NCBI GenBank assembly: GCA_003001975.1
Contig: PVUG01000001.1
Location: forward strand, 372,001 to 436,000
Reading direction: 5' to 3'
DNA from: Martelella mediterranea
Lineage (GTDB): Bacteria; Pseudomonadota; Alphaproteobacteria; Rhizobiales; Rhizobiaceae
Length of the DNA: 64,000 nt
The notes under the pieces are model-generated. The model worked only from the letters and a program-made list of their open reading frames with translations, made no database searches and was not told the DNA's origin. Made by a program: the position numbers and the translations under genes. Position 1 is the first letter of the stretch, and each line of letters opens with the position of its first letter. This document shows, piece after piece, positions 45,118 to 56,359 of this stretch.

Positions 45118-45435
45118 TTATCCCTCCGACATCTTCATCACCACAATCCCCGAGATGATCAGCACCGCTGCGATCAGCCTTCCGGGCGTTATAGCCTCGC
45201 CAAGAACAGCCACGCCGACGGCAAAGGCGCCGATGGCACCGATGCCGGTCCAGATCGTGTAGGCCGTGCCGAGCGGAAGCGTGCGCATGGAGATCGACAG
45301 CAGGATGAAGCTGGCCGCTGCGGCAAGGAAGGTGACGAGCGTGGGGGTGAGAAGGGTAAAGCCCGCCGACTTTTTCATGGAAAAAGCCCAGACGACTTCG
45401 AGAACACCGGCGATTGCGAGAATGAACCAGGCCAT
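45118..45435 (-). CDS. gdx: Guanidinium exporter Gdx (SugE-type small multidrug resistance protein)
   Basis: A 105-residue SMR-family protein with four helices: MAWFILAIAGVLEVVWAFSM, then a second (LVTFLAAAASFILLSISM), and a third with the SugE/Gdx signature GTAYTIWTGIGAIGAFAVGV, then LIAAVLIISGIVVMK. Gdx proteins export guanidinium in exchange for protons as antiparallel dimers. The subtype call is reinforced by the guanidine-II riboswitch in the leader. ATG 45435 is preceded by AAGGTGG, which can pair with CCAC next to the riboswitch. Confidence 0.92.
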   Translation of the reverse strand: MAWFILAIAGVLEVVWAFSMKKSAGFTLLTPTLVTFLAAAASFILLSISMRTLPLGTAYTIWTGIGAIGAFAVGVAVLGEAITPGRLIAAVLIISGIVVMKMSEG

Positions 45436-45461
45436 GACGGGTCCACCTTCTTTGATCAAGA

Positions 45462-45512
45462 GTGGCCGGGCCGTCCCGGATGGATATCGAAAGGCGCGGG
45501 TCGTCCCGCGCC
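45462..45512 (-). promoter_or_regulatory. Guanidine-II (mini-ykkC) riboswitch controlling gdx
   Basis: On the reverse strand, two hairpins carry the diagnostic ACGR loops: GGCGCGGG-ACGA-CCCGCGCC (45512-45493) and CCGGG-ACGG-CCCGG (45479-45466), separated by 13 bases. The second is followed at once by CCAC (45465-45462), complementary to the GGTGG ribosome site at 45447-45443, so ligand binding could free the site. The class is known to sense guanidine and to precede SugE/Gdx genes. The loops, order, spacing and downstream gene all agree. Confidence 0.88.
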
Positions 45513-53871: not shown

Positions 53872-54849
53872 ATGCCAGACCATCACACACAGGTTCTGAT
53901 CATCGGTTCCGGCCCGGCCGGCTATACCGCCGCGATCTATGCCGCACGCGCGATGATGAAGCCGGTGCTGATTGCCGGCCTTGAACAGGGCGGCCAGCTG
54001 ACGATCACCACCGATGTCGAAAATTATCCCGGTTTTGCCGATCCGATCCAGGGCCCCTGGCTGATGGAACAGATGCTGGCCCAGGCGGAAAATGTCGGCA
54101 CGGAAATCGTCAACGATCTGGTCTCCAGCCTCGACCTGAGCAAGCGCCCGTTCACGGCGACCACCGATTCGGGCGAAGTCTGGACAGCAGATACGGTGAT
54201 TCTCGCCACCGGCGCACAGGCCAAGTGGCTCGGCCTTGAAAGCGAACAGACCTTCAACGGCGGCGGCGTTTCCGCCTGCGCCACCTGCGATGGCTTTTTC
54301 TATCGGGGCAAGGATGTGATCGTGGTCGGCGGCGGCAATTCCGCTGTCGAAGAGGCGCTGTACCTTGCCAATATCGCCAAGACCGTGACGCTGGTGCACC
54401 GGCGTGACGAATTCCGCGCGGAAAAGATCCTGCAGCAGCGGCTGTTCGCGCTGGATAACGTCAAGGTCATCTGGAACCACGCTGTCGAGGAAATTGTCGG
54501 CACCAGCGCCGTACCGCCGCTGCCGCCGTCCGTCACCGGCGTGCGACTGAAAGATGTCAGGTCCGGCGAAAAGACCACGATTGACGCCGATGGCGTTTTC
54601 ATCGCCATCGGGCACGCACCGCAGGTCGATCTGATCCGCGACCAGCTCAAGCTGAAACCGAACGGTTACCTTTGGACCGAGCCGGGCACGACGAAAACCA
54701 GCATCGAGGGCGTTTACGGCGCAGGCGATGTGACGGATGACAATTACCGGCAGGCCGTGACAGCGGCGGGCATGGGATGTATGGCCGCACTTGAAGCGGA
54801 ACGCTTCCTGACCGAGCAGAAAACCGGTACACTGGCTGCCGCGGAGTAA
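53872..54849 (+). CDS. trxB: Thioredoxin reductase TrxB
   Basis: A 325-residue NADPH-dependent flavoenzyme that reduces thioredoxin. An N-terminal FAD site (VLIIGSGPAGYTAAIYAARA), the redox-active dithiol CATC in SACATCDGFF, an NADPH site (VIVVGGGNSAVEEALYLAN) and a C-terminal FAD loop (GVYGAGDVTDDNYRQAV) are all intact. ATG 53872 with GAAAGGA upstream. It runs into lsrB after five bases, so the two are one operon, consistent with the redox-related role of LsrB. Confidence 0.96.
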   Translation: MPDHHTQVLIIGSGPAGYTAAIYAARAMMKPVLIAGLEQGGQLTITTDVENYPGFADPIQGPWLMEQMLAQAENVGTEIVNDLVSSLDLSKRPFTATTDSGEVWTADTVILATGAQAKWLGLESEQTFNGGGVSACATCDGFFYRGKDVIVVGGGNSAVEEALYLANIAKTVTLVHRRDEFRAEKILQQRLFALDNVKVIWNHAVEEIVGTSAVPPLPPSVTGVRLKDVRSGEKTTIDADGVFIAIGHAPQVDLIRDQLKLKPNGYLWTEPGTTKTSIEGVYGAGDVTDDNYRQAVTAAGMGCMAALEAERFLTEQKTGTLAAAE

Positions 54850-54854
54850 AGTTT

Positions 54855-55766
54855 ATGAAAAGCACGAGCATGCCTCTGGATTGGGACAAGCTGCGCATCT
54901 TCCATGCGGCAGCAGAGGCGGGCTCGTTCACCCATGCGGCAGACAAGCTCCATCTGTCCCAGTCGGCCATCAGCCGTCAGGTCAGCGCCCTTGAACAGGA
55001 TGTCGGCGTGAAGCTGTTTCATCGTCACGCCCGCGGCCTGATTCTGACCGAACAGGGCGAACTGCTTTACCGCACGGCCCATGATGTGCTGCTGAAGCTC
55101 GAAGGCGTGCGCTCGCGGCTGACGGAAACCAAGGAAAAGCCGTCCGGCAAGCTCAGGGTGACGACCACCGTCGGCCTTGGCCAGGGCTGGCTGACCGACA
55201 AGGTCCAGGAATTCCTGCAGCTTTATCCCGACATGCAGATCCAGCTTATCCTCGACAATGAGGAGCTGGACGTGAACATGCGCCACGCCGATTGCGCGAT
55301 CCGGCTGCGACAGCCGCAACAGCCGGACCTGATCCAGCGCAAGCTGTTCACGGTGCACATGCATGTCTATGCCTCGCCGTCCTACATCAACCGCCATGGC
55401 GAGCCGCAATCGATCGAGGATCTCGACAATCACCGAATCATCACCTTCGGTGAACCGGCGCCAGCCTATCTTCTCGATGTGAACTGGCTGGAAATCGCCG
55501 GGCGTTCGTCCGATAATCCGCGTCCGGCGCATCTGCAGATCAATTCGCTGACCTCGATCAAGCGGGCCGCCCTGCTGGGAATCGGCATCGTCATGCTGCC
55601 GGACTATATCGTCGGGCGCGATCCCGGCCTGCTGCAGCTCGTCACCCACGCAGACGTCCCCAGCTTCGACACCTATTTCTGCTATCCGGACGAGCTGAAG
55701 AATTCGGCCAAGCTGAAAGTGTTCCGTGACTTCATCGTCACCAAGTCGCGCAACTGGAGCTTCTAG
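54855..55766 (+). CDS. lsrB: LysR-family regulator LsrB/VtlR
   Basis: A 303-residue LysR regulator: helix-turn-helix in LDWDKLRIFHAAAEAGSFTH and AADKLHLSQSAISRQVSALE, then a substrate-binding-like effector domain. Sequence, the position directly after trxB and the tandem AbcR-type RNA genes downstream match LsrB of Sinorhizobium (oxidative stress, symbiosis) and VtlR of Brucella (activator of abcR2). The start at 54855 has GGAG upstream. A second in-frame ATG at 54870 gives the N-terminus MPLDWDKL seen in relatives. Confidence 0.92.
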   Translation: MKSTSMPLDWDKLRIFHAAAEAGSFTHAADKLHLSQSAISRQVSALEQDVGVKLFHRHARGLILTEQGELLYRTAHDVLLKLEGVRSRLTETKEKPSGKLRVTTTVGLGQGWLTDKVQEFLQLYPDMQIQLILDNEELDVNMRHADCAIRLRQPQQPDLIQRKLFTVHMHVYASPSYINRHGEPQSIEDLDNHRIITFGEPAPAYLLDVNWLEIAGRSSDNPRPAHLQINSLTSIKRAALLGIGIVMLPDYIVGRDPGLLQLVTHADVPSFDTYFCYPDELKNSAKLKVFRDFIVTKSRNWSF

Positions 55767-55987
55767 AGCGCATCTGCAGCCCTGCTCCGGGACCAAGGCG
55801 ATTCGTCTCCGACAGCCGAAACATTTTTTCCGCTTCCGATCAGCCATCGCTGCGTCGGCGGTGACGAATGCGTCCTTGGCGTGCACAACCTTCAGGCACC
55901 GCGTAAAAACAGCCAAAACAAGCCTATTTTTTATGCTGTTTTTGAAGTTGCTTCGTATTAGTCAATTTTGGCTGCAAATTTCGCTTC

Positions 55988-56006
55988 CTGCATGGCAGCC
56001 ATGCAG
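55988..56006. promoter_or_regulatory. 19-bp perfect palindrome upstream of the first AbcR-type RNA
   Basis: CTGCATGGC-A-GCCATGCAG is a perfect dyad ending ten bases before the -35 of the first small-RNA promoter, centred near -54. That is a normal place for a LysR-type activator, and LsrB/VtlR is the adjacent gene. It could otherwise be an lsrB transcript hairpin. Binding is inferred. Confidence 0.5.
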
Positions 56007-56015
56007 AAAATCGCC

Positions 56016-56044
56016 TTGTGAAATGCCTAATTCAGGGGCATATC
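56016..56044 (+). promoter_or_regulatory. Promoter of the first AbcR-type RNA
   Basis: -35 TTGTGA (56016-56021) and -10 CATATC (56039-56044) are separated by 17 bases, giving a start near 56051. The second promoter has the same -10 and spacing exactly 200 bases downstream. Confidence 0.75.
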
Positions 56045-56050
56045 GCACAC

Positions 56051-56168
56051 AGCTGATGCAGTTGGCGCCCAATTTCTCCCTGGTGCACCGCAACAGCTGT
56101 TCCCCTCTGGAGGTTTTGAGAGACCTTCTAACTCAAAGGGCCCCGTTTTTCGGTGGCCCTCTTTTTTT
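56051..56168 (+). ncRNA. AbcR-type trans-acting small RNA, first copy
   Basis: An unannotated RNA of about 118 nt inferred from a promoter, a conserved core and a terminator. The core CAGCTGTTCCCCTCTGGAGG and the following TTTT (56094-56117) is identical to the second copy. The single-stranded CCCCTC can pair with ribosome sites, as in AbcR RNAs that repress ABC-transporter mRNAs with Hfq. The terminator arms are AGGGCC (56137-56142) and GGCCCT (56155-56160) plus a T run. Its place directly after the lsrB/vtlR gene is the known rhizobial location. The 5' end is approximate. Confidence 0.85.
56137..56168 (+). terminator. Terminator of the first AbcR-type RNA
   Basis: AGGGCCCCG pairs with CGG and GGCCCT around a TTTTT loop, then CTTTTTTT. 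Confidence 0.88.
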
Positions 56169-56215
56169 GCCTGCAGATCTTTGATCTTTTTTTTCGCATT
56201 GGGCGATGAAAACTA

Positions 56216-56244
56216 TTGCAACGCGCACAAAAAAGAACCATATC
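56216..56244 (+). promoter_or_regulatory. Promoter of the second AbcR-type RNA
   Basis: -35 TTGCAA (56216-56221), 17-base spacer and -10 CATATC (56239-56244), giving a start near 56251. AGCTGATGC follows, as in the first copy. Upstream is TCGCATTGGGCGA (56194-56206), which has LysR-type T-N11-A symmetry but is not the first copy's palindrome. Confidence 0.7.
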
Positions 56245-56250
56245 CAGAAT

Positions 56251-56359
56251 TAGCTGATGCGTACGGCGTGACTGTTGAGTCTCGCTGCAGCAGCTGTTCC
56301 CCTCTGGAGGTTTTACCTTCACACCTAACAGGGCCCCGTTTTGGAGGCCCTTTTTTTTG
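56251..56359 (+). ncRNA. AbcR-type trans-acting small RNA, second copy
   Basis: A second RNA of about 108 nt in tandem with the first. It shares AGCTGATGC at the 5' end, the 24-base core (56291-56314) with the anti-Shine-Dalgarno CCCCTC, and an AGGGCC/GGCCCT terminator (56330-56351) with a T run. The regions between these blocks differ, so the two probably have overlapping but distinct targets. As in Sinorhizobium and Agrobacterium, two copies follow each other on one strand. The 5' end is approximate. Confidence 0.85.
56330..56358 (+). terminator. Terminator of the second AbcR-type RNA
   Basis: AGGGCC (56330-56335) and GGCCCT (56346-56351) with a GTTTT-containing loop and eight Ts. Confidence 0.88.

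Follow-up and report, generated by a model that had tools for sequence, protein, structure and literature searches.

The abcR locus of Martelella: a first small RNA very probably activated by LsrB and a second most likely under a different input

In Sinorhizobium meliloti, AbcR1 and AbcR2 (alpha-r15) are encoded in tandem beside lsrB, between lsrB and SMc01226, and their published role is the silencing of transporter and metabolic mRNAs (PMC3712013, PMC8844928). They are independent transcription units with anti-Shine-Dalgarno motifs, and one of the two promoters, PabcR1, carries at -61 to -49 the LsrB/VtlR box, published as GCAT-N3-TG-N3-T (PMC8844928, PMC7486931). Without this predicted motif the reporter activity of PabcR1 was cut more than 22-fold, and LsrB shifted the promoter, while the activity of PabcR2, which is of the RpoH1 type, was LsrB-independent (PMC8844928). 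In Agrobacterium tumefaciens, abcR1 is activated by VtlR, which bound its promoter PabcR1; unlabelled PabcR2 gave no competition for VtlR, and AbcR2 is reported to lack the M1 motif (PMC7486931). In Brucella, VtlR activates abcR2, and its regulon is given as AbcR2 plus three DUF1127 genes; the regulator is encoded by a thioredoxin reductase gene (trxB in the case of Brucella melitensis vtlR), with the AbcR RNA downstream (PMC12595884). An ar15 RNA beside lsrB is an ordinary arrangement that was already known, and what a preliminary description of the present DNA had stated (AbcR pairs by the LsrB/VtlR gene in Sinorhizobium and Agrobacterium, and activation of abcR2 by VtlR in Brucella) agrees with these papers. 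For Martelella, a search of open-licence PubMed Central for the genus together with AbcR found no paper, and PMC10469942 mentions none of AbcR, VtlR and LsrB.

The window, i.e. the whole analysed stretch of 64,000 nucleotides of Martelella mediterranea DNA, carries on its + strand, in this order, trxB, a LysR-type gene and two ar15 RNAs:

53872..54849 (+): trxB, thioredoxin-disulfide reductase, 5' neighbour of lsrB (TIGR01292, 402 bits, cut-off 343.45)
54855..55766 (+): lsrB/vtlR, LysR-type regulator of 303 aa (HTH_1 and LysR_substrate), open reading frame
56051..56168 (+): AbcR1-like sRNA, ar15 copy 1, T run included (RF02345 at 56051-56165, 89.9 bits, E 3e-17)
56252..56359 (+): AbcR2-like sRNA, ar15 copy 2, T run included (RF02345 at 56252-56356, 81.0 bits, E 5.3e-15)

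The claim that a tandem pair of AbcR-family RNAs lies downstream of lsrB/vtlR is borne out by the matches to Rfam ar15 (RF02345, the AbcR family; gathering cut-off 40) and by the neighbouring genes. The covariance-model check that had been proposed for it gave a full-length match for both copies (positions 1-112 of 112), and no third copy was found in a search across the whole genome (4.63 Mb in 46 contigs). The product of the LysR-type gene matches Pfam PF00126 and PF03466 above their cut-offs, and none of the 25 NCBIfam families among the matches listed (of 54) reached its cut-off; its assignment to LsrB/VtlR is made by architecture and neighbours, with the LysR architecture, trxB upstream and ar15 downstream all present. 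It is 95-99% identical to eight Martelella-group homologues, i.e. 99% to those of Martelella radicis, M. lutilitoris and a Marinicella sp. W31 record, and 95-98% to five more Martelella records. The Marinicella record is counted within the Martelella group, which with the window comprises nine loci. The gene 3' of the sRNA pair belongs to the Oxidored_FMN family, whereas that of S. meliloti is of the ArsR type. In the window, lsrB and the first sRNA are farther apart than in many other lsrB loci, and the interval contains an imperfect 17-nt inverted repeat (82% complementary, 55905-55943).

By comparison with the systems described above, it is very likely that copy 1 of this locus is activated by LsrB and that copy 2 is under a different input. 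The two RNAs themselves are alike in most respects. They share the 5' sequence AGCTGATGC (from 56051 and 56252), of which the preliminary start at 56051 stands, while the one at 56251 is shifted by the model to 56252 (an offset of 201). An identical core of 24 bases had likewise been claimed, and the longest exact common stretch is indeed 24 nt (56094-56117 and 56291-56314). Within this core both RNAs hold the CCCCTC that had been read as an anti-ribosome-site sequence, and both end, as had been described, in a terminator of the AGGGCC type (in the folds, an AGGGCC...GGCCCT hairpin followed by a T run). A generic terminator scan at the locus returned 0 terminators. The motifs of the two RNAs are the following:

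56076..56080 (+): first-loop CUCCC of copy 1 (here called M1), unpaired in the fold
56102..56107 (+): CCCCUC anti-Shine-Dalgarno motif of copy 1, unpaired in the fold, inside the 24-nt core
56299..56304 (+): CCCCUC anti-Shine-Dalgarno motif of copy 2, unpaired in the fold, inside the 24-nt core

The predicted folds contain three hairpins each, with the terminator last (copy 1: -42.1 kcal/mol, z -2.64; copy 2: -41.6 kcal/mol, z -3.45). Copy 1 has CUCCC in loop 1 and CCCCUC in the stretch that joins the first two hairpins, so that its RNA would expose both motifs and would end at its own terminator; loop 1 of copy 2 differs. Copy 1 thus has both anti-Shine-Dalgarno motifs and copy 2 only CCCCUC, and this difference extends to the genus, where the first loop contains CUCCC in copy 1 of 12 genomes out of 13 and in copy 2 of none. 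We take CUCCC to be the published M1, an assignment made from its position in the loop.

Copy 2 could be regarded as a decaying duplicate without function, given that it lacks CUCCC and that its first loop has diverged, the mean column identity over nine sequences being 87% for copy 2 versus 95% for copy 1. This is highly improbable, however, as conservation in the genus covers the core, the second hairpin and the promoter block, and as the nine copy-2 sequences show two-sided changes at 5 of the 32 predicted pairs, even though 7 of the 32 are broken or gapped somewhere. Tandem copies are moreover present in all 13 genus genomes, 201-203 nt apart.

For copy 1, the palindrome upstream of the core promoter points to LsrB/VtlR:

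55990..56004 (no strand): predicted LsrB/VtlR box GCATGGCAGCCATGC, a 15-bp palindrome at -61 to -47 of copy 1
56016..56044 (+): copy 1 core promoter, called from conservation, TTGTGA-17-CATATC, its -35 region overlapped by TTG-N9-TAA

The interval of the preliminary description began at 55988, which is the first base of the extended palindrome, although the description did not mention the box itself. Compared with the published 13-mer, the copy 1 box is exact on the - strand (-59 to -47) and has one mismatch on the + strand (-61), an A for T at base 8; the A at this position on the + strand is a difference from Agrobacterium tumefaciens, and the base varies within the genus. Among 81 first copies (window included), GCATnnCWGnnATGC is found at -61 with 0 mismatches in 76 and with 1 in 5, its centre being T in 69 and A in 12, whereas the 13-mer fits the forward strand of 66, the reverse strand of 12 and neither strand of 3. 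Since the 15-mer fits 76 of 81 exactly and the 13-mer depends on the strand, the box is more aptly written as a palindrome in which the central A/T is free. None of PMC7486931, PMC8844928, PMC12595884, PMC10746234 and PMC11975290 uses the word palindrome in its main text. PMC8844928 does mention the general T-N11-A motif ahead of the core promoter, and with TGCA-N6-GCAT, described in PMC10746234 for another LsrB-bound promoter, a near-palindromic reading of the LsrB site is already in print. In all 13 genus genomes the box of copy 1 has 0 mismatches. The exact palindrome matches the genome twice, at the abcR1 box and once inside longer open reading frames, while a second strict palindrome pattern gave two further matches genome-wide, versus 2 for its reversed control. 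By analogy with the relatives, LsrB/VtlR, encoded just upstream, would bind the palindrome at 55990-56004 and, once bound, would activate transcription of copy 1 from approximately 56051.

The core promoters of the two copies do resemble each other, as had been noticed: the same -10, CATATC, is read at 56039-56044 and 56239-56244, and TTGTGA (56016-56021) and TTGCAA (56216-56221) each precede it by the same 17 bases. Both sets of hexamers are weak matches to the consensus, and a generic sigma-70 scan returned 0 promoters at the locus; the promoter calls rest on conservation rather than on a consensus match, with an NATA hexamer beginning at -12 in all 81 copy-1 promoters. The exact offset of 200 bp between the promoters holds for the two -10s of the window, but not as a meaningful feature. 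It is found in 2 of the nine Martelella-group loci, the others lying within 196-202, and it reaches 253 over the 56 measurable of 58 multi-copy loci, which rules out a functional role for the exact distance and makes the 200 bp a coincidence.

What found no support is the claim that the promoters share one architecture and that the neighbouring gene probably activates both, since only copy 1 is boxed. Nothing nearer to the palindrome than 5 mismatches lies between -66 and -56 of copy 2 in any of the 13 genus genomes, and its promoter region differs in kind:

56188..56244 (+): promoter region of copy 2 with GATGAAAACTATTGCAACGCGCACAAAAAAGAACCATATC, no LsrB box and not of the CTTGAA type, from sequence comparison

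A block G(A/C)TGAAAACTRTTGCA...GCGCACAAAAAAGAACCATAT precedes copy 2 in all 13 genus genomes (56188-56238 in the window), and a 28-nt stretch of it was found nowhere else in the genome at up to 3 mismatches. As copy 2 lacks both the box and CUCCC, the core hexamers are common to the two promoters and the control probably is not. Copy 2 (from approximately 56252) would accordingly be expressed from its own promoter and most likely be driven by an input other than LsrB, which is the same split as in Agrobacterium tumefaciens.

How far copy 2 departs from other second copies can be judged from 72 fetched loci outside the Martelella group, in which the box was allowed up to 2 mismatches. Box and CUCCC are each present in all 72 first copies, and the 50 second copies comprise 41 with the box, 6 that fit a loose CTTGAA-type pattern and 3 with neither, CUCCC being present in 47. 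TTG-N9-YAA is found in none of the 9 boxless second copies, in 39 of the 42 boxed second or third copies and in 40 of the 72 first copies. In the genus, TTG-N9-(C/T)AA lies over the -35 of both copies in 13 of 13 genomes, with the CAA form in copy 2, and LsrB may thus influence copy 2 through this dyad. With the proximal TTG-N9-YAA present, the distal box absent and a conserved block of its own, Martelella copy 2 therefore forms a separate class.

These counts bear on the possibility that both copies are activated by LsrB, copy 2 via its proximal TTG-N9-CAA or via a site in common with copy 1. The dyad in every genus genome, its frequency in boxed copies elsewhere and the full box in most second copies of the other loci speak for it; on the other side are the boxless copy 2 throughout the genus, the predicted terminator between the copies, and the behaviour of both PabcR2 promoters described above, in Agrobacterium (PMC7486931) and in S. 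meliloti (PMC8844928), so that joint activation seems unlikely. Transcription of copy 2 by the heat-shock sigma factor RpoH, as published for S. meliloti AbcR2 and RpoH1 (PMC8844928), is in turn distinctly unlikely. Copy 2 of Martelella does contain CCATAT, and CTTGAA-N13..17-C(C/T)(C/T)AT fits the 6 second copies mentioned, but it fits none of the 9 in the Martelella group, and the -35 is (A/G)TTGCA(A/T) rather than CTTGAA in 13 of 13 genus genomes. In contrast to S. meliloti, then, the second promoter of Martelella is neither of the LsrB-box nor of the CTTGAA type, and its RNA is without CUCCC. Tentatively, copy 2 could have been rewired in Martelella, having neither box nor CUCCC and a conserved block that would be read by a regulator other than LsrB and RpoH, with one ancestral control split between two inputs; this is plausible, if somewhat short of probable. 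That copy 2 lost its box rather than never had one is something we infer, because the tree of copies is too short to order the duplication.

In that tree, which covers 29 of the 81 loci, the first copies of Martelella fall into one group and the second copies into another (100/100), and both positions are therefore old within the genus. A search among relatives gave an ar15 match at E <=0.001 in 35 of 61 genomes (own included), 27 of the 61 being over the family cut-off, and with stricter filters two matches in each of the 13 genus genomes. In the LsrB search, the best 80 of 577 relatives were taken as loci, and in all 80 of these ar15 lies downstream of lsrB on the same strand (two copies in 57, one in 22, three in one), from which the pair appears to be a standard feature; with the window added there are 81 loci, 58 with two copies. 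As seven of the eight Martelella-group loci come from the same assemblies as seven of the genus genomes, the counts over nine loci and over thirteen genomes overlap and are not to be summed. At the Brucella locus only abcR2 is named in the portions of PMC12595884 drawn on here, versus two tandem copies in Martelella. A well-studied regulator-sRNA module is thereby extended to Martelella and the known picture of the family is unchanged, although it is suggested that the two sister RNAs have come to be controlled differently in different lineages. The locus of Metarhizobium album (L109, 3615-4147) has three tandem ar15 copies, with an LsrB-type box at each.

The sharper, palindromic box also points, by sequence alone, to co-targets of LsrB/VtlR among DUF1127 genes, which are VtlR targets in Brucella (PMC12595884). 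The box GCATRGSGGCNTT lies 111-117 nt before the start used in 4 of the 8 DUF1127 matches of the genome, versus the three DUF1127 genes of Brucella:

C4:249557, C4:249919, C6:200309 and C23:9110 (own genome, G000): four boxed DUF1127 genes (loci L118-L121, L126-L128, L133)

At these four sites and at abcR1, the ATAT of the -10 begins 50 nt after the start of the box. At a further DUF1127 locus (L122), the published 13-mer occurs without mismatch at -140 when the reverse strand is read, and at two others (L123 and L124, minus strand) no GCAT-N3-NG-N3-T was found within 300 nt upstream of the DUF1127 match. A combined box-to--10 pattern was built from abcR1 and the four DUF1127 sites, so that its five hits in the own genome arise by construction and a test is offered only by the other 12 genomes of the genus. 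In these it matched 73 distinct sites, of which 11 belong to ar15 copy 1 (invariably at -61), none to copy 2, 30 lie within 250 nt upstream of a same-strand DUF1127 match (0.013 expected, taking 59.5 Mb in all) and 32 lie at neither, among which G003:C1:149060 is the abcR1 palindrome on the other strand and G008:C48:33 a contig end. The 30 correspond to 30 boxed of 84 DUF1127 matches and, the 12 genomes being related, are not 30 independent events. The twelfth genome (G002), without a matched site at copy 1, has the exact box there with a -10 of CATACC, which the pattern excluded.

As for the targets of the RNAs themselves, copy 1, together with Hfq, would by analogy with relatives most likely pair with the ribosome-binding sites of mRNAs for transport and metabolism and lower their translation. 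Target prediction was mostly negative. It compared 30 SBP_bac_5 genes with 46 control genes of the window, with the strength of the Shine-Dalgarno sequence, rather than annotation, deciding the start codons and the length of the open reading frame deciding the control genes. Duplex energies did not differ between the two sets (p 0.13 for M1 and 0.56 for M2), and the two strings used as controls, the copy-2 loop and a scrambled M1, formed somewhat better duplexes with the control genes (one-sided p 0.99 for either). GGGAG, to which CUCCC is complementary, occurs near the start of 8 of the 30 SBP_bac_5 genes and of 0 of the 46 controls (Fisher p 0.0003, one of six motifs), which is suggestive at most. 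GGAG and GAGG are each enriched as well (17 of 30 versus 13 of 46, p 0.013), and the GGGAG signal is therefore partly that of a stronger ribosome site in general.

Elsewhere in the window, a Guanidine-II (mini-ykkC) riboswitch was found on the - strand at 45466-45512 (48.3 bits, E 1.7e-06), directly followed by an open reading frame of 113 aa (45118-45459, - strand) whose product presumably resembles transporters of the small multidrug-resistance family.
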